From Chthoniobacterales bacterium (GTDB lineage Bacteria; Verrucomicrobiota; Verrucomicrobiia; Chthoniobacterales; UBA6821), in NCBI GenBank assembly GCA_019747895.1, contig JAIEQF010000008.1, positions 1 through 64,000 on the forward strand: a stretch of DNA of 64,000 bases, given 5' to 3'. This document shows, piece after piece, positions 1,805 through 33,834 of this stretch. The notes below the pieces were generated by a model. That model did no database searches, was not told the DNA's origin, and saw nothing but the letters and a program-made list of their open reading frames with translations. Position 1 is the first letter of the stretch. Every line of letters starts with the position of its first letter. The translations under genes and the position numbers were made by a program.

Positions 1805-3622
1805 ATGCCCACCGTCGCCCAATATGTTGCAGAACGTTTTGTTGCTCTCGGTATCAAGCATGTCTTTGGTGTTCCTGGCGATTATTCTTTTCCTGTCGAT
1901 AATGCGTTGGAAAAAGTGATGACGTGGGTTGGTTGTGCCAATGAGTTAAATGCAGGTTATGCAGCCGATGGTTATGCAAGATCTCATGGTGCAGCCTTGC
2001 TCTGCACGACTTATGGTGTTGGAGAGTTAAGTGCGCTCAATGCGATGATGGGATCGCTGGCAGAACGAGTTCCTGTTTTTCATTTAGTGGGAGTTCCTAG
2101 TCACCGCTTGCACCGCTCTCATCAACCGCTGCACCACTCTCTTGGAGATGGAGAACTTCATCGATTTTTTGAAATCTCTGCAGCGGCAGCGTGCGTGAGT
2201 GCTTTTTTAACGCCAGAAAATGTTGTGGTAGAGCTGGAGCGTGTTATTCACACAGCGCTGCTCGAGCAACGTCCAGCCTATCTCGTCGTGCCGGGTGATT
2301 ATGCCTTGATGGAAGTGATGGGGGAAGACTTCTTTGAAAACTCTACTTCTGACGCGAATTGCGTCGTCGCTCCGGTGCTCGCGTCATCGAGTATTAGCTA
2401 TACACTCAGCCGCTGTGCGACGGAGGCTCCTGGCACTTCATCGCCAGAAGCGAGTTTTGAAAGAAGTCTAATCTCCAAGAAAAAATCGCTTCCTGTCAGT
2501 GATCAGTGCGAGCTGGCTGCAGCAACCAAGGAAATCGTTGAGCGACTTGCTGTCGCAAAAACCCCGATCATCCTTCCTGCTGTTACGCTTGCTCGCTATG
2601 GATTAGAAAAAGAATTCGAAACATTGTTGAATGTTTCAGGGATTCCCTATGCAACGATGTTGATGGATAAAGCCGTGATCTCAGAATCGCATCCCAACTA
2701 TCTTGGTATGTATCGTGGCGCCGCCTCAGAAGCCTCTGTTAAAGAGGCAGTGGAGTCGGCGGATCTTATTCTAAATGTCGGTGGTGCTCTCTTTACGGAT
2801 CTTGGGACGGGCTTTTTTTCTCATGAAATAAAATCAGAGAAGATGATCACCATGGCGCCAAACTTTGTTGAAATGGCGATTTCGAATAATGACCAGCTAA
2901 AAAATTATAGTCCCGTGGCGCTGCAAGATTTGTTGGCGGCCTTGAACAAAGCTTTTCAAGAGGGCCTCATTGAAAAAAAGAAAAAAATTGTTTCTTCAAC
3001 TTTTCCGATCACAAGAGCATTGGGAAAATCAGAAGATCATGTTACTAACGAATCCTTCTATGCTCGGATGTCGCGATTTTTACAACCGAACGATCAAGTG
3101 GTCGTTGAGTCAGGATTTTGTATGTTGGAAATGGCCTCGATCAAACTTCCTGCTGGCGCTCGTTACTATCATCAAAGCTTGTGGGGGTCTATTGGGTGGG
3201 CTACTCCGGCTACGTTGGGAGTCGCTATTTCTAAGCCAGAGACTCGTGTCGTCTTGGTTACAGGAGATGGATCTCATCAATTCACAGCCAACGAACTTGG
3301 CACTATGAGTCGTTATCGAGTGAAACCAATCATTTTTATTATGAATGATGGCGTATATGCGATTGAGGAATTTCTTGATCAAAACAAAGGGCACCTTTAT
3401 AACAAACTAGCTCCTTGGTCTTATGCTAAGCTTCCACAAGTCATGGGGTGCCATGATTGGCTGACGATGCAGATAAGAACTAATGAAGAACTTGATCAAG
3501 CGCTTGTAAAGGCGTCTCAATGTGAGAGTGCCTGTTATTTTGAAATCTTACTCGGATCCCACTTGCGGCCGCCAGCCCCAGAATCTATGACCAAAGCTTT
3601 TTATCAAAACGTTCCAAATTAA
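1805..3622 (+). CDS. Thiamine-diphosphate 2-oxoacid decarboxylase (pyruvate/indolepyruvate/branched-chain type) with in-frame repeat insertion
   Basis: This is a non-oxidative decarboxylase of 2-oxoacids to aldehydes. The catalytic Glu is E47 (CANELNAGYAADGYAR), the paired histidines are H110/H111 (LHHSLGDG), and the ThDP/Mg motif starts at GDG 487-489 and runs to MNDG about 25 residues later. The 605 residues exceed the usual 550-570. The excess is explained by a 144-bp palindromic element (2326-2469) encoding about residues 175-222, between the N-terminal PYR domain and the middle domain. The next gene, 20 bp downstream, is leucine dehydrogenase, which favours branched-chain 2-oxoacids as substrates. 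That is inference: pyruvate and indolepyruvate remain possible. Catalytic motifs are intact, so activity may be retained. Confidence 0.88.
   Translation: MPTVAQYVAERFVALGIKHVFGVPGDYSFPVDNALEKVMTWVGCANELNAGYAADGYARSHGAALLCTTYGVGELSALNAMMGSLAERVPVFHLVGVPSHRLHRSHQPLHHSLGDGELHRFFEISAAAACVSAFLTPENVVVELERVIHTALLEQRPAYLVVPGDYALMEVMGEDFFENSTSDANCVVAPVLASSSISYTLSRCATEAPGTSSPEASFERSLISKKKSLPVSDQCELAAATKEIVERLAVAKTPIILPAVTLARYGLEKEFETLLNVSGIPYATMLMDKAVISESHPNYLGMYRGAASEASVKEAVESADLILNVGGALFTDLGTGFFSHEIKSEKMITMAPNFVEMAISNNDQLKNYSPVALQDLLAALNKAFQEGLIEKKKKIVSSTFPITRALGKSEDHVTNESFYARMSRFLQPNDQVVVESGFCMLEMASIKLPAGARYYHQSLWGSIGWATPATLGVAISKPETRVVLVTGDGSHQFTANELGTMSRYRVKPIIFIMNDGVYAIEEFLDQNKGHLYNKLAPWSYAKLPQVMGCHDWLTMQIRTNEELDQALVKASQCESACYFEILLGSHLRPPAPESMTKAFYQNVPN
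2326..2469. repeat. 144-bp protein-coding palindromic element, copy 1 (in the decarboxylase)
   Basis: The element starts AGACTTCTTT and ends AAAGAAGTCT. The first ~30 nt pair almost perfectly with the last ~30, and a central GAGTATTAGCTATACACTC forms the tip. Aligned without gaps to 14509-14652 the central part is about 90% identical. Both copies are 144 bp (48 codons) and enter at codon position 3, so the same peptide frame is read: PVLASSSI, YTLSRCA and EAPGT appear in both. The arm ends differ between copies but stay self-complementary. No target duplication is visible. Confidence 0.93.
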
Positions 3623-5909: not shown

Positions 5910-6809
5910 ATGCCCTTCATCAACTTAGCCGGTTATCAATTTACTCCTCTTGAAAATCTTCTGCCGCTCCAAGAAGAATTAAAATCACTCTGCCTTCAGT
6001 TAGAAATGAAGGGAACGATTTTATTGGCGGAGGAGGGGATTAATTTTTTTGTGGCTGGAACGCGCAAAGCCTCAGATAACTTGATGGCGAGGCTGAGAGA
6101 AATTCGCGGTCTCGCAAACCTCAAGGCCAAAGAGAGTGAGAGTCAGGAGCAGCCGTTTCGTCGGATGTTTGTGAAAATTAAAAAAGAAATTATTTCTTTT
6201 GGCATTGAAGGGATTAATCCAGCGTTGGCTCCTTCTCCAAAAATTGCGCCAAAAGTTTTAAAGGAATGGTTGGATGCAGGAAAACCAATCACGTTGTTGG
6301 ATACGCGCAATGATTATGAGATCAAGATGGGAACCTTTCGGGGAGCTATTCCACCAAGAATCAATCATTTTCGAGATTTTCCTGAAGCCGTAAAAAAATT
6401 ACCCGAGCAACTTAAAGAGGAACCGGTGGTGATGTTTTGTACGGGAGGAATTAGATGTGAGAAAGCTGGACCTTTTATGGAGCGAGAAGGATTTAAAAAA
6501 ATTTTTCAGCTAGAGGGAGGAATTCTCGATTATTTTAAAGAATGTGGTGGCGCTCATTATGACGGAGAGTGTTTTGTTTTTGATAGACGCGTCGGCGTCG
6601 ATGCCGCTTTGCAAGAGACCTCTTCCGAAATGTGCTTTGCTTGTCAAATGCCATTGACCTTCGAGGATCAGCGTCATCCTCACTATGAGATAGAAAAAAG
6701 TTGTCCCCATTGTTTTGGTCGGGAAAAAAAAGAAAAAATTCCTAAGCCGCGCAAAAGTCGCAAGCTAAAAAAGGAGCTCCATGAGCGAAGCAGCATCTCG
6801 TCTTTGTAG
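5910..6809 (+). CDS. trhO: tRNA uridine(34) hydroxylase, rhodanese-related (TrhO/YceA family)
   Basis: Oxygen-dependent hydroxylase making 5-hydroxyuridine at tRNA position 34. A ferredoxin-like N-terminal domain (1-90, KGTILLAEEGINFFVAG) leads to a rhodanese domain (about 125-220) with the active-site cysteine C177 in FCTGGIRCEKAG. A cysteine-rich C-terminal tail (CFACQMPL, SCPHCFG) may bind metal, and the last 30 residues are strongly basic. Length (299) is typical. The ATG lies 29 bp upstream of the stop of this gene for the following YkgJ-like protein, so the two are translationally coupled. Confidence 0.9.
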   Translation: MPFINLAGYQFTPLENLLPLQEELKSLCLQLEMKGTILLAEEGINFFVAGTRKASDNLMARLREIRGLANLKAKESESQEQPFRRMFVKIKKEIISFGIEGINPALAPSPKIAPKVLKEWLDAGKPITLLDTRNDYEIKMGTFRGAIPPRINHFRDFPEAVKKLPEQLKEEPVVMFCTGGIRCEKAGPFMEREGFKKIFQLEGGILDYFKECGGAHYDGECFVFDRRVGVDAALQETSSEMCFACQMPLTFEDQRHPHYEIEKSCPHCFGREKKEKIPKPRKSRKLKKELHERSSISSL

Positions 6810-7290
6810 AGCTTGTGGTCTCTGTTGCGATGGGAGCCTGTTTCCTAACGTGCAACTACAGCCTGCAGACTCAGCGCAAGCACTCAAGGCGCTGGGGCTT
6901 CGTGTTCAGCATAAAAAAAAATACGATTTTTTTGATCAGCCTTGTTCTGCTTTTAAAAATAAGTGCTGCTCGATTTACCAAGAACGTCCTGTGCGTTGCC
7001 GTGCCTTTGAATGTCAGCAATTAAAACGTCTGGCGCAAGGAGAGACGAGGGAAGAGGATGCTTTAAAAAAGATTGAAGAAGCTCAGAGTATGATTGATGT
7101 GATTAAAAAATTGTTTTATCGTTTGGGTCCTACCAATCCTAGAAAGCCGCTGCTTCAACAATATCAACAAATTATTGCAGATCCCATAAACCCGGCTTTA
7201 GATAAAAAAGTTGTTGAAGAGAGGATGCAGCTCGACGAGGCTCTATCAAATCTCAATGAATTTCTCAACCAAGAATTCCGCTGTGCGTAA
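6781..7290 (+). CDS. YkgJ-type cysteine cluster protein
   Basis: The 169-residue protein carries the YkgJ/YcgN-like cysteine arrangement: CRACGLCCDG at the N-terminus, then CSAFKNKCCSIYQERPVRCRAFEC around residues 55-78, expected to bind zinc or an Fe-S cluster. The biochemical function of this family is unknown. It has one of the few good ribosome-binding sites in the window (AAGGAG about 7 nt before the ATG). It overlaps the hydroxylase upstream and the phosphatase downstream, which suggests one transcript. Confidence 0.85.
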   Translation: MSEAASRLCRACGLCCDGSLFPNVQLQPADSAQALKALGLRVQHKKKYDFFDQPCSAFKNKCCSIYQERPVRCRAFECQQLKRLAQGETREEDALKKIEEAQSMIDVIKKLFYRLGPTNPRKPLLQQYQQIIADPINPALDKKVVEERMQLDEALSNLNEFLNQEFRCA

Positions 7291-8101: not shown

Positions 8102-8146
8102 TCTCCAGTCATTGGTAACATCAATTAGTAGCAATAATGTTCACTA

Positions 8147-8336
8147 AAGTTGTAGCCGCGCATTGCGGCGTCACTCCGGTGCTCGCGTCCTCGAGTATCA
8201 GAATACACTGCGGATCTGCGGTTGAACTCGCTCGCTCCCGCTCGGCTCGCCCTTGCGGGCTGCTTAAACAGCAGTCCATCCAGCGGCCGCCCGGCCCGCT
8301 GTATTCTCGTTTCTGGCACTGCATCGGCTACAACTT
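8147..8336. repeat. Palindromic element, copy 3 (intergenic, longer variant)
   Basis: The left half (about 8156-8210) matches the coding copies at 2326 and 14509 (CTCCGGTGCTCGCGTC, CGAGTAT.AG). The right end TGGCACTGCATCG also matches. Between them is extra GC-rich sequence with its own hairpins (AGAATACA..TGTATTCT). The ends AAGTTGTAGCCG (8147-8158) and CGGCTACAACTT (8325-8336) are a perfect 12-bp inverted repeat, with a sequence different from the arms of the other copies. A small open frame (8137-8397, 86 codons) reads the repeat in the same frame as the two enzymes. Confidence 0.85.
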
Positions 8337-8420
8337 CATTTTAATTAGGGGTGGAGCGTTGAGGCTGGCTGGTAGGCTCCCCGAGAATGGGCCCTAGCAG
8401 CAGCTCATTAACACTGCTAC

Positions 8421-9580: not shown

Positions 9581-9731
9581 TTTTTTGAAACCTGATTTTT
9601 CAATAAAACATCCAGAATATCAAGCCGTTGCTAATAATATTTGATTTTTAATTGAATAAGGTGCTCGGCAGTTTTTTCTGTAGAAAAGAGTCAAATTTCT
9701 CTCGTTCTTCTCATGAAAACCCATCACTTTT

Positions 9732-10162
9732 CATTGCTGTGGAAGATAAGAAATAAAATTTGAAAATAGAAATCCAACAACTCTCCAGAAAGTCCTGCGC
9801 CAGGTTGAAAGGTTGAAAAGTTGAGGGGTTGAAAGGACTTCTTTTGTAAAAAGAGAGTCACCTGACTTTGAGCCTCCTTTCAACCTCTCAACCCTTCAAC
9901 AGCTGCGAAGCAGCGCTCAACCAAGACTATTCCTAGCTGCTATAGTCAAATTACTTAGAACTTACAAGCAATTGACTTGTCCTTTTTAGGAAAAGACTGC
10001 GTTCTCATCCCGTCACGTTATCGTTTAGATAGCGCTGGGTCTTCGGCCTGGCCTTTTCTAAAAATTCCTGCGTTCTTCCCTGTAATTTCTAAGTAATTTG
10101 ACTATATCGGATTTCATCAAAAGAGAAATCAATCTTTTTAAATTTATTTTGGACAAGAGTGA
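9732..10162. mobile_element. Element B copy 1 (non-coding, inverted ends GCTGTCC/GGACAAGAGTGA), interrupted by a nested MITE
   Basis: The reverse complement matches 33431-33690 almost base for base: AATTTAAAAAG, GAGCGCTGCTTCGCAGCTG, the GGTTGAGAGGTTGAAAGG words and GGAGCAGGAC or its variant. The match is broken only by the MITE at 9941-10106. The remaining sequence is non-coding. Inner arms are made of repeated GGTTGAAA/TTTCAACC words, so the element folds back. Confidence 0.85.
9941..10106. mobile_element. Correia-like MITE nested in element B
   Basis: Perfect 20-bp inverted ends: TATAGTCAAATTACTTAGAA at 9941-9960 and its complement at 10087-10106. Length (166 bp) and core (CGTTCTCA, ACGTTATC, GATAGCG, CTTCGGCCT) match the element at 9341. 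The empty site survives in the other element-B copy: there CTAGCTGC-TA-TCGG is continuous (near 33488), here the same flanks are separated by the MITE with TA on each side, a direct record of insertion at a TA dinucleotide. Confidence 0.9.
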
Positions 10163-10424: not shown

Positions 10425-13400
10425 ATGCTTTTCCCTCAAAAAAAATTCTTCTTAGCCCTTCTTGCTACCACTTCACTTTTTGGAAGCACTCTCTTTTCTC
10501 AACAAGCTCCTCCTGCTGGAACCCAGTCTGTTATTAGCGTTTCGGACTACACCGAGTTCTTGAATTGCGTTGCAGCAACAGATACTTATGGCGTCTATAA
10601 TCCAAAAATGGGAGAGGATGCAGGCATCGGTTCTATTATCACTCGTTCGGGAAAGCCTGGAAGTTACACTTACAACGACAATCCTGAGAAAGCTTCCTTT
10701 CCGGTTACTTATGTCTCTCAGGTTTCTGCAATGCGCTATTGCAACTGGAAATCACATCACGGCGCCTTTGGTCTTCAAGATAGCACGACGACCGAAACAG
10801 GATCTTACGATTTAACAGCATTTGATCAAGGTGCCGACATTGCTACCGTTATCTTAACACCAGGCGCGAATTTTTTTCTTCCAACCAATGATCTCATCGA
10901 CACAACGTTTCAAGATGCCAGCACTCAAAGTTGCGATCCTTATCTTGCCTCGAGTCGCTTAGGATTTTGCATAGGAACATGGAGTTCTACTTCTTCTTCG
11001 AATGCGGCTAGCGGAGATAGTGGCGCTCTCAACCAAGCTGGAGCTGGTGGTGTCAACGGCAGTGGTTCATTAGGAAATGCGTCAGGTTCTGCTCCTACCG
11101 CTACCTCGAAAGCTCATGATGTAACTCTTAAGACTACGACTCCATCAACAGGGATTTCAATGCTCAGAGATGCGGTACCAGCCAATAGCAATCAAATCAA
11201 TATCAGTCTTGTCCAGGTAGGTGCTCCTAATAATCCTGCCGATCTTTCATCTACGAACAGTGGGACAACCAATGGTTATGGTGCGGTATTGATGCCTTAT
11301 CAAATTGGAACTTATGATGTCAAAGCTTCTGAATACTGTGCCTTCTTGAATGCAGTCGCTAAGAAAAGTGACCCTCATGGTCTTTACAATACCAACATGA
11401 CATCAGATCCTGATGTTGCCTGTATTACTCGTTCCGGAGATGCTATTAGCGGTTACACTTACGTTCCCATCGATGGTCGAAAAGATTTTCCAATCACCTA
11501 TGTTGGTTGGTTTGCTGCAACACGATTTTGTAACTGGCTAGAGAATGGCCAGCCGACAGGAGATCAGACTAATGGGGTAACAGAAAACGGAGCTTTTGTT
11601 GCAGGGGTACCTGTGCAGGGAGCAGCTTGGTCGCTCCCAACCGAAGATCAGTGGTATAAGGCAGCCTATTATCTTCCATCAACTAATAATACTTCCGGAA
11701 AGTATTGTTCTTTTGGAACAGATAGCAACGATGCACCAGGAAATAAATGGGAAGAGGCAGTTGTTGCCAATAGAGCCAATTACTCTCTCAATGGTATTGT
11801 TACAACGTCAACTCAACCGCGATTGACTCCTGTTGGATCTTTCAAATCATCAGCAAGTCCGTGGGGTGCTTATGACATGGCAGGAGAGGTGAATCAGTGG
11901 ACTTCTACCTTTGATGCAAGTGGAAATAATGTGATCATTCGAGGTGGATCTTGGAAATCTCAGACCAGTGCTGAACTGAAATCAACAACCCGCTTCACTA
12001 ACCCAGTGCTAGGAGGTTCTACAGTTGGATTCCGCGTGGTTTATAATATTCCTCCTCCTCCGAGAGTGACTCACCTTGATATGATGAAGGATCTTGTTCC
12101 TGTTGGTGATCCTAATAATACTGCCGATACGCCTATAGCTCCAGGAGTCCCTGGTTTTGGATCAGTGCCAACAGTCTATCAAATTGAAAAATATGATGTC
12201 ACAGCCGAACAATATTGCATGTTCTTAAATGCTGTAGCAACTCATGCTGATCCACATGCTCTCTACAATCTAAAGATGGCAACAGATTCCGATGTTGCCT
12301 GCATTATCCGCTATGGTAACCTCAATAGAGGATATAGCTATTTTACTATTCCTGGACGAGAAAAGTTTCCTATCACTTATGTAAACGCGTTTGCAACGCT
12401 AAGGTTTTGCAATTGGTTGGCACATGATCAACCAATCGGATATGAGTCTCCCGAAACGACCGAAACTGGATCTTTCAATCAAGATGATCAAGGAGCCTTT
12501 AGCATTGCAACAAATAATCCAAAATGGCTTCTTCCAACTGAAGACCAATGGTACAAGGCTGCCTATTACCAACCAGCTAAGGATGGGAGCAGTGGTTTCT
12601 ACTGTAGTTTTGGAACAGGAAGTTATGACCCTCCTGTGAATAGTCTTTCCACCATAAGCAACTCAGCAAACTATTGCCTCAACAGCGTCTTCACAACACC
12701 GACTCAACCTCGCCTGACTGCTGTTGGAACATTTACAAAAACAACGAGTCCTTGTGGTGCTTATGACATGGCAGGAGATGTGAGTCAGTGGACTATGACG
12801 ACTATTCTTTCTGACCCTAACAGCTTTGTTGTTCGTGGTGGTTCTTGGCAGTCAACAAGCTTTCAAGGCCTTCGTTTTTCAGCAGCTCTCTTCGTAGATG
12901 CTGGGAGCAGCAGTAGCACAACTGGATTTCGTGTTATCTATAACGTTCCGCCGCCACCGCCGACCCCAACACAGGTTGCGACCACTATTTTTCAAAATGT
13001 TACTAAAACTCTCTATACTGATGGCAAATCTCTTGTCACGCTCCATGCTACTACTCAAGATGGCTCAAATCCTTTCTTTGGCTACATCACTGGACCGTTT
13101 ATGGGAGGAATTTATAAGTGGGTTCTCAGTGGTTTAACTTTAGTCTTCAGAAATATTTGTCTTTTCTTTCAAAAATTACTTACTGCAATCCTGCCCGATG
13201 GGATGATGAAGACATTAAGTGGATGGTTTAGAGGATTTTTTAACTTCTTCTTTAAATCAATTGGAGTAGAAACTGAAGCAGGAGCTGACTTTGCTGAAAT
13301 TGGCTTATGGGATTCTATGATGACCACTGGAGGAGAATATACCATGATGGCCACAAATCCTCCATTGGCTTTAGCCATCATGCTTGCAGGAATTCTAACT

Positions 13401-13505
13401 TATGCAGCTTATGAAGATCTTCAGCAAAGTGATCCAAGAGCTGGAATCACTTTCGCTACTTTTGATATTGGATATATTATAGGAATTATCCGATGTTTCT
13501 TGTAG
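10425..13505 (+). CDS. Secreted three-repeat SUMF1/formylglycine-generating-enzyme-like protein with hydrophobic C-terminal tail
   Basis: The 1026-residue protein opens with a signal peptide (KKFFLALLATTSLFGSTLFS). A first, degenerate SUMF1-like unit covers about 35-235. Two fuller units follow at about 258-545 and 555-840, each with YQIxxYDV, CNWL, LPTEDQWYKAAYY, GAYDMAG.V.QWT, RGGSW and GFRV.YN. A Pro-rich linker leads to a C-terminal region (about 880-1026) with several hydrophobic segments, which may anchor it. SUMF1 folds include formylglycine-generating enzymes and many non-catalytic or ligand-binding relatives; without a sulfatase nearby the enzymatic role is doubtful. A single-unit relative is at 19357-20526. 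Start chosen because it directly begins the signal peptide. Confidence 0.8.
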   Translation: MLFPQKKFFLALLATTSLFGSTLFSQQAPPAGTQSVISVSDYTEFLNCVAATDTYGVYNPKMGEDAGIGSIITRSGKPGSYTYNDNPEKASFPVTYVSQVSAMRYCNWKSHHGAFGLQDSTTTETGSYDLTAFDQGADIATVILTPGANFFLPTNDLIDTTFQDASTQSCDPYLASSRLGFCIGTWSSTSSSNAASGDSGALNQAGAGGVNGSGSLGNASGSAPTATSKAHDVTLKTTTPSTGISMLRDAVPANSNQINISLVQVGAPNNPADLSSTNSGTTNGYGAVLMPYQIGTYDVKASEYCAFLNAVAKKSDPHGLYNTNMTSDPDVACITRSGDAISGYTYVPIDGRKDFPITYVGWFAATRFCNWLENGQPTGDQTNGVTENGAFVAGVPVQGAAWSLPTEDQWYKAAYYLPSTNNTSGKYCSFGTDSNDAPGNKWEEAVVANRANYSLNGIVTTSTQPRLTPVGSFKSSASPWGAYDMAGEVNQWTSTFDASGNNVIIRGGSWKSQTSAELKSTTRFTNPVLGGSTVGFRVVYNIPPPPRVTHLDMMKDLVPVGDPNNTADTPIAPGVPGFGSVPTVYQIEKYDVTAEQYCMFLNAVATHADPHALYNLKMATDSDVACIIRYGNLNRGYSYFTIPGREKFPITYVNAFATLRFCNWLAHDQPIGYESPETTETGSFNQDDQGAFSIATNNPKWLLPTEDQWYKAAYYQPAKDGSSGFYCSFGTGSYDPPVNSLSTISNSANYCLNSVFTTPTQPRLTAVGTFTKTTSPCGAYDMAGDVSQWTMTTILSDPNSFVVRGGSWQSTSFQGLRFSAALFVDAGSSSSTTGFRVIYNVPPPPPTPTQVATTIFQNVTKTLYTDGKSLVTLHATTQDGSNPFFGYITGPFMGGIYKWVLSGLTLVFRNICLFFQKLLTAILPDGMMKTLSGWFRGFFNFFFKSIGVETEAGADFAEIGLWDSMMTTGGEYTMMATNPPLALAIMLAGILTYAAYEDLQQSDPRAGITFATFDIGYIIGIIRCFL

Positions 13506-13540: not shown

Positions 13541-14983
13541 ATGACAAAGAGTATTGGTATCGGCCTTGCAGGCTTTGGAACCGTAGGAGCAGGAGTCTTT
13601 GATTACCTGCAACATCAGAGTGATCTTCTAGCCCAGCGTTCTGGATTTCGTTTTGACGTTCGTTCCATCGTCGTTCGTGATTTAAAAAAAAATCGTGATG
13701 TTGCTGCTCCGAGTTCACTTTTTACGACTTCTTGGCGTGATCTTCTAAAAGACCCTGAGATCAAAATTGTAGTGGAACTTTTGGGAGGAACAACCGATGC
13801 CCTTGATTTAATCAAGGCAGCCATTGAATCAGGTCGCATGGTCGTGACGGGCAACAAAGCCTTGCTCGCAGAGCATGGTCAGGAAATTTTTGCTCTTGCA
13901 AAAAAACATGATGTTCCCATTTTTTATGAAGCTGCGGTCGCTGGTGGCATTCCGATCATCCAAAGCTTGCGAGATGCTTTTGTCGGAAATCGTATTGAGT
14001 CGATTCATGGCATTCTCAATGGGACGAGCAATTACATCCTCTCTCGCATGCAAGAGGCAGGACTCGACTACAAAGCCGCTCTAGCAGAGGCTACAGAGCT
14101 TGGTTATGCAGAAGCAGACCCTACACTCGACATTAATGGGGGAGATGCCGCGCACAAAGCAATTATTTTGGCGGCACTGGCGTATGGATTTTGGGTGAAG
14201 CCTGAAGCAATTCGTGTCGATGGAATTGAAGAGGTAACTGCAACAGATATTGCTTTTGCACGCAATCTCGGTTACCACATCAAACTCTTGGCAACGATTC
14301 GTTCCGCACCAGATGATTCGATTGAGGTGACCGTTGCACCTACGCTCATTTCTAAAAATAGCGTCTTGGCCTCAGTGAATGGGGTTTTTAATGCTATTGC
14401 TGTCAAAGGAGATCTTGTGGGAGATGCTCTTTTTTATGGGAGAGGTGCGGGTCGTAAACCGACAGCAAGTTCTGTAATCGGAGATCTCGTTGAAGCTGCT
14501 TTTATGTTAGACCTCTTGCATAACTCTACTGCTAACGCGCATTGTGGCGTCGCTCCGGTGCTCGCGTCATCGAGTATTAGATATACACTCAGCCGCTGCG
14601 CGCCGGAGGCTCCTGGCACTGCATCGCCAGCAGCGATTTCTGCAAGAGGTCTGTTGGACTCATCACGTCGGCATGTTGGCTTTGCCTCACACACGCTCTA
14701 TGGAGCTAGCCGTGCTGCTACTGACATTTGTTCTTATTACTATTTGCGATTAACAGTCGAAGACCAACCGGGCGTGCTTGGAAAAATCGCAACGCTTCTC
14801 GGCGCTGCTGAGATCGGCATCGCCTCTGCCATTCAGCCTGAATCACTGGAAGGCTCAGAAACATCTCTTGTCTTTATGACGCATCAAGCATCATACGGAA
14901 TGATGCGTTCAGCTCTGAAAGAAATTGAAAAGCTGGCTTGTGTTAAAGCGAAGCCTGTGATCTTCAATGTTGAGGCGGTTTAA
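13541..14983 (+). CDS. hom: Homoserine dehydrogenase with in-frame repeat insertion
   Basis: NAD(P)H reduction of aspartate semialdehyde to homoserine. The nucleotide site is GLAGFGTVGAGV (7-18); the catalytic domain shows GILNGTSNYIL, EADPTLDINGGDAAHK and GRGAGRKPTASSVIGD. A C-terminal ACT domain starts at YYLRLTVEDQPGVLGKIA. At 480 residues it is some 45 longer than the usual ~430. The surplus is the palindromic element at 14509-14652 (about residues 324-371), placed after the catalytic domain and before the ACT domain. Catalytic residues are undisturbed. thrC and lysC follow on the same strand, giving a threonine-pathway cluster; a hairpin separates hom from thrC. Confidence 0.95.
   Translation: MTKSIGIGLAGFGTVGAGVFDYLQHQSDLLAQRSGFRFDVRSIVVRDLKKNRDVAAPSSLFTTSWRDLLKDPEIKIVVELLGGTTDALDLIKAAIESGRMVVTGNKALLAEHGQEIFALAKKHDVPIFYEAAVAGGIPIIQSLRDAFVGNRIESIHGILNGTSNYILSRMQEAGLDYKAALAEATELGYAEADPTLDINGGDAAHKAIILAALAYGFWVKPEAIRVDGIEEVTATDIAFARNLGYHIKLLATIRSAPDDSIEVTVAPTLISKNSVLASVNGVFNAIAVKGDLVGDALFYGRGAGRKPTASSVIGDLVEAAFMLDLLHNSTANAHCGVAPVLASSSIRYTLSRCAPEAPGTASPAAISARGLLDSSRRHVGFASHTLYGASRAATDICSYYYLRLTVEDQPGVLGKIATLLGAAEIGIASAIQPESLEGSETSLVFMTHQASYGMMRSALKEIEKLACVKAKPVIFNVEAV
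14509..14652. repeat. 144-bp protein-coding palindromic element, copy 2 (in homoserine dehydrogenase)
   Basis: Ends AGACCTCTTGCA (14509-14520) and TGCAAGAGGTCT (14641-14652) are perfect inverted repeats. Pairing continues inward through AACTC/GAtTT and GCTaaCG/CGCCAGC. Length and reading phase equal those of copy 1 in the decarboxylase, with about 14 differences over the 131 best-aligned bases. The outer arm sequence differs from copy 1 (CCTCTTGCA versus CTTCTTTGA) but remains self-complementary. It encodes a peptide containing GVAPVLASSSI, YTLSRCAPEAPGT and ASPAA. Confidence 0.94.
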
Positions 14984-17691: not shown

Positions 17692-17779
17692 CCACAAAAG
17701 AACACAAAGATCACAAAAAAAAGAATTTCGCTTATTCTATCGTTTTTTCTTTTGTGCTCTTTGTGTTCTTTTGTGGCTA
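17690..17779. terminator. Convergent-gene fold-back, 'AGCCACAAAAGA' family
   Basis: TAGCCACAAAAGAACACAAAG at the left and CTTTGTGTTCTTTTGTGGCTA at the right are inverted copies, with T-rich tracts in between. It lies between the convergent lysC and pyk genes and could stop transcription from both sides. Related fold-backs with the same word lie at 24734-24812, 29331-29396, 43694-43884 and 52442-52500. Confidence 0.75.
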
Positions 17780-33430: not shown

Positions 33431-33690
33431 TCACTCTTGTCCAAAATAAATTTAAAAAGATTGATTTCTCTTTTGATGAAATCCGATAGCAGCTAGGAAT
33501 AGTCTTGGTTGAGCGCTGCTTCGCAGCTGGTGAAGGGTTGAGAGGTTGAAAGGAGGCTCAAAGTCATGTGACTCTCGTTTTACAAAAGAAGTCCTTTCAA
33601 CCCCTCAACTTTTCAACCTGGAGCAGGACTTTCTGGATAGTTGTTGGGTTTCTATTTTCAAATTTAATTTCTTATTCTGGACAGCAATGG
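33431..33690. mobile_element. Element B copy 2 (uninterrupted, 7-bp target duplication)
   Basis: Begins TCACTCTTGTCCAAAATA and ends TATTCTGGACAGCAATGG, with related inverted ends (TTGTCC/GGACAG). AATTAGG flanks it directly on both sides, a probable 7-bp target duplication. Inner arms GGTTGAGAGGTTGAAAGG and CCTTTCAACCCCTCAAC pair. It is the uninterrupted relative of 9732-10162 and preserves the MITE's empty TA site near 33488. It has no coding capacity. The rest of the gap (33691-33834) is AT-rich with nothing recognised. Confidence 0.85.
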
Positions 33691-33834
33691 AATTAGGTCT
33701 TGAAATGACGAGAAGAAAAAATGTTTATAGATTTATAGGTTTAAATTTTCTTCTTTTATTTATAAACCTGTAAACTAGTAAACTTTCTTCGAAATCAAAT
33801 TCCATTTTCTTTTTTTACAGAATCTCCTAAACAG

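Follow-up and report, generated by a model that had tools for sequence, protein, structure and literature searches.

Two enzyme genes in the window (the whole stretch of 64,000 nucleotides analysed here, from a Chthoniobacterales bacterium) are interrupted in frame by palindromic elements of one family, both of its AGAC subfamily. The first element (2326..2469, forward strand) lies in the gene of an indolepyruvate/2-keto-acid decarboxylase (1805..3622, forward strand; 605 aa, Pfam TPP_enzyme_N/M/C), where it accounts for residues 174-222 and encodes the peptide DFFENSTSDANCVVAPVLASSSISYTLSRCATEAPGTSSPEASFERSL. The second (14509..14652, forward strand) lies in the gene of homoserine dehydrogenase, hom (13541..14983, forward strand; 480 aa), assigned by Pfam and by insert-free orthologs, with the insert at residues 323-371. 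The initial annotation holds for both segments: each measures 144 bp, the two align without gaps, here with 88% identity, each folds along nearly its whole length into a hairpin (z of -3.2 to -5.8 when compared with dinucleotide shuffles), and the translated ORFs show one and the same frame. Its figure of 48 added residues per copy has to be corrected, the net gain being 49 codons (144 bp and a 3-bp duplication).

The hom copy is bordered by GTT on the left (14506..14508, forward strand) and on the right (14653..14655, forward strand), read from the sequence as the two copies of a target duplication that fits the 3-bp duplication seen throughout the genus. The flanks of the decarboxylase copy, GGA and AAT, differ, so that the duplication there has decayed or was never present. 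A third, degenerate copy with a GC-rich expansion in its loop is intergenic (8139..8340, forward strand; covariance-model match at 8154-8247). A search of the window against Rfam matched two tRNAs and nothing else.

The two hosts had been suspected of exceeding their families in length, with the surplus at domain linkers, and both points are borne out. Homoserine dehydrogenase has 480 aa in the genome of the window and 431 aa in a congener (G002); the insert is flanked by the Pfam domains Homoserine_dh (catalytic) and ACT, and that of the decarboxylase by TPP_N and TPP_M. Relatives of known structure in PDB, indolepyruvate decarboxylases in the case of the decarboxylase, match either side of each insert and do not span it. 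None of the 13 aligned hom orthologs from the same order has a segment at the position of the insert, and the site orthologous to the decarboxylase insert is empty in the sister species LacPavin. The hom gene gives a single match in its own genome at E<=1e-30. An AlphaFold model of Hom gives pLDDT<50 for residues 332-378, most of which belong to the insert, and is confident over the greater part of the catalytic and ACT domains; going by this model the insert peptide is probably disordered.

Copy number, distribution and hairpin structure

The genome of the window (G000; 2.06 Mb in 55 contigs, 96% complete) contains 82 matches to a 21-bp core of the palindrome at up to 3 mismatches, 42 of them forward and 40 reverse. 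The reversed control pattern has no match in this genome, and the family is therefore not a product of chance. One core match (C46:3307) falls in an unrelated ORF and has been excluded. A covariance model derived from 58 copies matches about 129 sites in G000, 111 in its sister species G005 and 54, 32, 22 and 7 in the congeners G002, G001, G003 and G004; some of the copy counts are to be taken as "at least". Genomes of another genus of the same family give 0-5 weak matches each (best E 3.5e-6), which have been left out of the membership counts. A DNA search identified the element in five congeners and in none of 52 other relatives searched. As far as sequence similarity can tell, the family has no clear members outside the genus. 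The core occurs in 54 named stretches, every one from Verrucomicrobiota, among them the MAGs LacPavin (JAPLTJ01), K_DeepCast (VHCR01) and Kiruna Spartobacteria (CAIWMF), and since the named matches are confined to Verrucomicrobiota (Verrucomicrobiia/Spartobacteria) MAGs, the earlier inference of a PVC-type genome from the letters alone proves apt.

A frameshift or an assembly artefact in either gene, or the same segment at the same place in distant orthologs, would have refuted the initial annotation. Neither was met with: the 13 hom orthologs lack the segment, and an artefact is rejected because independently assembled congeners carry the same palindrome family and the filled and empty pairs of sites described below agree.

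The alignment of the 58 copies has 42 predicted pairs, 32 of which show changes on both sides. Paired cells make up 92.9%, against 73.9% when shuffled and 31-44% when the partners are slid, and double changes were observed in 457 cells against 131 after shuffling. The ends of the copies were set partly by complementarity, and the outermost three or four pairs are for that reason biased; the inner pairs are unbiased. The arms thus covary strongly. By their outer arms the copies fall into the subfamilies AGAC, GAACC (starting GAACCTGTCT), CTAG/TAGAGC, AAACTG and GAGGGTG, with a nearly constant apex. MITEs are ordinarily conserved at their ends, and the present family, with a conserved apex and variable ends, is unusual in comparison.

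Derivatives and other repeats have also been encountered. An 87-bp deletion derivative (G000:C39:35011-35097) has AGAC arms and no core, and three copies (G000:C17:8227, C25:3969 and C52:18238) have GC-rich second-order inserts of about 72-81 bp in the loop with the frame kept. The window contains an inverted pair of near-identical repeats (9729-10162 and 33431-33692, 86-100%). Part of it, TATAGTCAAATTACTTAG... (9941-10106, about 166 bp), forms another small element with inverted repeats, and elsewhere in G000 this element interrupts several copies of the palindrome (contigs C18, C38, C39 and C41). Intergenic hairpin-forming repeats (TCTTTGTGTTCTTTTGTGGCTATT and complements) are found at 17758, 24790, 29374, 43862 and 52479, and a 130-nt direct repeat (11774-11903 and 12665-12794, 75%) lies within an ORF of 1026 aa (10425-13505).

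Empty sites, reading frame and stop codons

The DNA of G000 and G005 is roughly 90% identical; the comparison of the two drew on the stretches around copies and on 40 contigs of G005. With BLAST anchors on both sides, a net insertion of exactly 147 bp was observed at 11 distinct loci, 6 filled in G000 and 5 in G005, after duplicate loci had been dropped. The gene tpiA is a twelfth such locus, filled in G000 and empty in both G005 and G002; apart from the element copies no second TIM-like match is present in G000. At C53:64020, for example, TTCTGA is followed by the element and TGAAGAACC, and the empty site reads TTCTGAAGAACC. The remaining in-gene length differences between G000 and G005 are all multiples of three and represent linker indels or nested inserts. 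The sister species differ at most of the sites examined, and as sites are filled in either one, the element has moved in both lineages after their split. In LacPavin a palindrome (L064:5349) occupies the ortholog of the window ORF 6781-7290, which has none here (near 7190).

Identical 3-mers flank 11 copies where 2.1 are expected (0 of 500 shuffles reach this number). The right flank of GAACC copies is TNA in 13 of 13 cases, with TGA or TAA identical on both sides in 7, and AGAC copies show a 3-bp duplication favouring ATT, AAT or GTT (A-N-T type), with both sides identical in 7 of 22. The net insertion is 147 bp in both subfamilies. A 2-bp (TA) duplication was considered and rejected, both the shuffle test and the empty sites giving 3 bp. 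An element of 144 bp with a 3-bp duplication amounts to 147 bp or 49 codons, and the reading frame is thereby kept.

Of the 82 copies, 36 lie in frame in long ORFs, 26 border on a gene's stop codon and the remaining 20 are situated elsewhere. The initial annotation had predicted that a selfish element comparable to the Rickettsia palindromic elements (RPE), and of independent origin, would show further in-frame copies and insert-free orthologs, and both have been found. Most of the ORFs hosting the in-gene copies, which are inserted 21 in one orientation and 15 in the other, encode conserved enzymes. The hosts supported by Pfam include DXS, a radical-SAM MiaB/RimO-like enzyme, phosphoglucomutase/phosphomannomutase, UvrA, a penicillin-binding protein, TatD, an RsmE-type methyltransferase, PriA, PurD, NAD(P)H-hydrate dehydratase, PEP carboxylase, acetate kinase, RibD, Sua5, triosephosphate isomerase (tpiA) and glutamate synthase. 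A CoaE-Rho ORF, also supported by Pfam, hosts two copies; it has 730 aa, with the copies at G000:C24:1734-1878 and 2433-2577, one of them between the domains, and the palindrome may have created or bridged this fusion. The in-gene call at C54:54829 is doubtful, the ORF being of no known family and read in a different frame.

Forward in-gene copies share one common stop-free frame in 20 of 21 cases. The modal length modulo 3 is kept by 27 of 29 in-gene copies, the other two departing from it, as against 11 of 29 non-coding copies (p=1.6e-5). Differences at codon positions 1, 2 and 3 of the coding frame amount to 0.40, 0.29 and 0.32, and this absence of a third-position excess gives no sign of purifying selection on the peptide. 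The insert peptide looks like a tolerated passive passenger that is not used, its inertness being an inference. That the host proteins contain it is likewise inferred, from the retention of frame and by analogy with an RPE-containing guanylate kinase that is translated and active (reviewed in PMC2229807).

In the 26 stop-codon copies the gene reads into the element and finds its stop codon at or just inside the edge. Their orientation is strongly biased, with 26 against 1 in reverse orientation (binomial p about 4e-7). Either end of the palindrome could supply a stop, yet nearly all of these copies share one orientation. The Pfam match of rpsI (ribosomal protein S9; copy at G000:C53:41701) extends to the last residue, and those of YchF, YajQ (DUF520), FabG and PRPP synthetase end at most one or two residues short of it. 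On this evidence of domain matches, the tested hosts of stop-codon copies are complete. In a single case (C31:20709) the site is empty in the sister genome and a native TAA stop stands at the equal position. Targeting and selection are indistinguishable from these data.

Proposed mechanism of mobilisation

A contig of the congener G002 (C20) encodes an IS5-family IS (DUF4096 and DDE_Tnp_1 in two frames) with the ends GAGGGTGTCTTGAAA and TTTCAAGACACCCTC and the flanks TAA/TAA. Three palindromes of G000, of the GAGGGTG subfamily, have 15-bp arms identical to these ends (15/15), and two of the three are flanked by TTA/TTA and TAC/TAC. The last ~146 bp of the G002 IS, right after the transposase stop, are a full palindrome copy, which may be a later insertion at that stop codon. 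A relic of the same IS in G000 (contig C25) has the plain end TTGAATTTCAAGACACCCTC with no palindrome after the transposase. Other genera of the order contain ISs of the same group whose ends include TAGAGCCTGTTATGAAC, CTAGAGCGTGTTATG and AGAGACTGTCTGAAAA, the GAGC ends being flanked by CTAG or TA, and none of the IS5-family ISs of these genera carries the palindrome. When the arms are scored as IS5-type ends with a matrix derived from the IS ends of these other genera, 15 of 70 palindromes reach p<0.01 where 0.7 are expected. As copies within a subfamily are related and not independent items, the score supports the link and does not prove it; for the GAACC and GAGC types the resemblance to IS ends is of this statistical kind.

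The AGAC arms of both window copies do not score as IS1031/IS427 ends, no IS with AGAC ends has been found, and AGAC arms at kilobase distance, as in an autonomous element, were not seen in G000. Neither G000 nor G005 yielded an intact IS5 transposase of this type; MAGs, however, often lose copies of ISs and may lack repeats. The palindrome itself has no ORF beyond the fused peptide.

For ISLrh, a published element of the IS1031 group, the ends are GAACCTGTCTAGTATCT and insertion takes place at TNA, leaving a 3-bp repeat (PMC12016507). The GAACC subfamily matches this end over its first ten bases, and the TNA target is also common to both. From this match in ends and target, together with the identity of the 15-bp arms, mobilisation in trans by IS5-family transposases is proposed. 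We regard it as likely that the palindrome is a non-autonomous MITE moved in trans by a transposase of the IS5 family (IS1031/IS427 type) with preservation of frame. That copies have moved is shown by the filled and empty sites, but mobilisation in trans is inferred, as are the IS5 transposase as the mover and the involvement of IS5-type enzymes in all subfamilies; for the AGAC subfamily, and hence for both window copies, it is inferred by analogy alone.

According to this proposal the two arms would act as terminal inverted repeats for IS5-family DDE transposases supplied in trans, and each insertion would duplicate 3 bp (TNA for GAACC, A-N-T type for AGAC) and add 147 bp. A copy within a gene would survive in a loop or linker where its phase and strand leave the reading free of stops, and copies of stop-rich subfamilies would survive on the gene's own stop codon, rebuilding or duplicating it. 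Selection would act on the frame and on the lack of stops, the peptide itself remaining passive. The complementarity of the arms may be maintained by hairpin-templated repair, which is again an inference. The mechanism (IS5-type ends, 3-bp duplication), the stop-codon niche and the scale of the family are missing from the initial annotation.

A system like that of the RPE, working by an unknown hairpin-specific mechanism on RNA or single-stranded DNA with the IS-like ends of some subfamilies as a secondary matter, is unlikely and yet retains some force. It would accommodate the conservation of the apex in place of the ends, the variation of arms among subfamilies that stay complementary, and the AGAC subfamily without an IS match; the many 3-bp duplications and the exact 147-bp insertion, however, indicate transposition by a staggered cut, and the IS-end identity over 15 bp and the TNA target fit elements of the IS1031 group.

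Movement by a Y1 (TnpA-REP) transposase, in the manner of REP/RAYT systems, would be in keeping with the Y1 genes of the three copy-richest genomes (G000, G002 and G005), which were not found in the other three congeners. These genes are not flanked by palindromes, and the palindromes have a target duplication, which Y1 enzymes to our knowledge do not leave. The length of 144 bp is also unlike that of REPs, which have 20-40 bp and GTAG/CGTC tags (PMC3733652). We consider this explanation very improbable.

Equally hard to sustain is the removal of the in-frame segments after transcription, or their being skipped in translation, in the way of introns, inteins or byps. The strong hairpin, and the fact that triosephosphate isomerase and other central enzymes are interrupted, could be read in this sense, but coding copies keep the frame and the lack of stops where non-coding copies do not, which would be needless if the segments were removed or bypassed, and the guanylate kinase with an RPE is translated and active (PMC2229807). 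Least credible of all is the selection of the inserts as functional domains of benefit to the host proteins, for although they are kept in conserved and apparently intact enzymes, the sister species differ at most sites examined, the third codon position shows no excess, the Hom model is of low confidence and probably disordered at the insert, and the hosts have no common pathway.

The reading of the palindrome as a MITE of IS5 type can be extended, in a form that we put forward only tentatively and do not hold to be the more probable case. Coding palindromes may arise repeatedly wherever an element of IS5 type turns into a hairpin with a length that is a multiple of three and its transposase makes a 3-bp duplication, so that the frame is kept at every insertion. 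The preferred target would be a stop-like triplet (TNA, TAG), and this would leave two harmless niches, in frame or on a gene's own stop, to which subfamilies would specialise; the RPE and the Wolbachia palindromic elements (WPE) might be explained in the same way.

Comparison with known palindromic elements

A search of the open literature turned up no account of elements of this kind in Verrucomicrobiota; subscription papers were mostly outside its scope. With IS5 (IS1031/IS427) elements and their MITEs some subfamilies of the palindrome, AGAC not among them, have ends in common (GAGGGTGTCTTGAAA or GAACCTGTCT, and the GAGC type seen in ISs of the order), and the GAACC subfamily also the 3-bp TNA duplication, as in ISLrh. 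The palindrome differs from them in being almost wholly one hairpin with a nearly constant apex, covarying variable arms and a stop-free coding frame, and in occurring in many copies in a MAG without an intact cognate IS. Small non-autonomous elements such as ERIC/IRU and the Coxiella QMITE1 may likewise become fused in frame to ORFs (PMC10969869, PMC2229807); in these intragenic MITEs such fusion is occasional, whereas for the palindrome it is a main habit, in conserved enzymes (36 of 82 copies). Hairpins within protein-coding genes are also formed by the byp elements of Magnusiomyces mitochondria and the coding palindromes of Nematomorpha mtDNA (PMC6649704). The byps are skipped in translation and the Nematomorpha repeats are perfect and maintained, while the copies in Verrucomicrobiota are, by inference, translated and undergo decay.

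The WPE are palindromes found in frame within priA, addA and other genes (PMC4224334). The Verrucomicrobiota palindrome also has a copy in priA, in a different host, and a link in sequence or lineage is not shown. We know of no IS link for the WPE.

The closest resemblance is to the RPE of Ogata, Claverie and colleagues, palindromes of about 105-150 bp that form several families with many copies and occupy conserved housekeeping genes, in frame, as well as intergenic regions (PMC2229807, PMC10969869). Insertion into RNA genes (tmRNA, RNase P) is a further trait of the RPE; their target duplication was listed as unknown in a 2007 review of small mobile repeats (PMC2229807). The present palindrome falls within this range of lengths with its 144 bp, forms a long stem-loop with 32 of 42 pairs covarying, and is inserted in frame in conserved genes (36 copies) whose orthologs are empty. 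The RPE are limited to Rickettsia, which are obligate intracellular bacteria, whereas the core of the palindrome has been found only in another phylum, the Verrucomicrobiota, in bacteria of lake metagenomes whose lifestyle is inferred from sample titles and genome size; the Verrucomicrobiota palindrome differs further in its demonstrated 3-bp duplication, its stop-codon niche and the connection of the ends of some subfamilies with an IS family. It appears to be independent of the RPE, a view reached without direct comparison with RPE sequences.

This apparently independent case of coding palindromes in another phylum has close relatives that allow filled and empty sites to be read, and it offers a testable mechanism consisting of IS5-type ends, a 3-bp duplication and a length that is a multiple of three. 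A selfish element can evidently lengthen dozens of conserved enzymes by 49 residues and leave them unbroken, which constitutes a natural experiment on the tolerance of essential enzymes to insertion, and annotators are warned that lengthened orthologs in such genomes are not necessarily artefacts. As with the RPE the habit of the element is to be carried in frame within conserved genes, and to this the Verrucomicrobiota palindrome adds its second niche at the stop codon.
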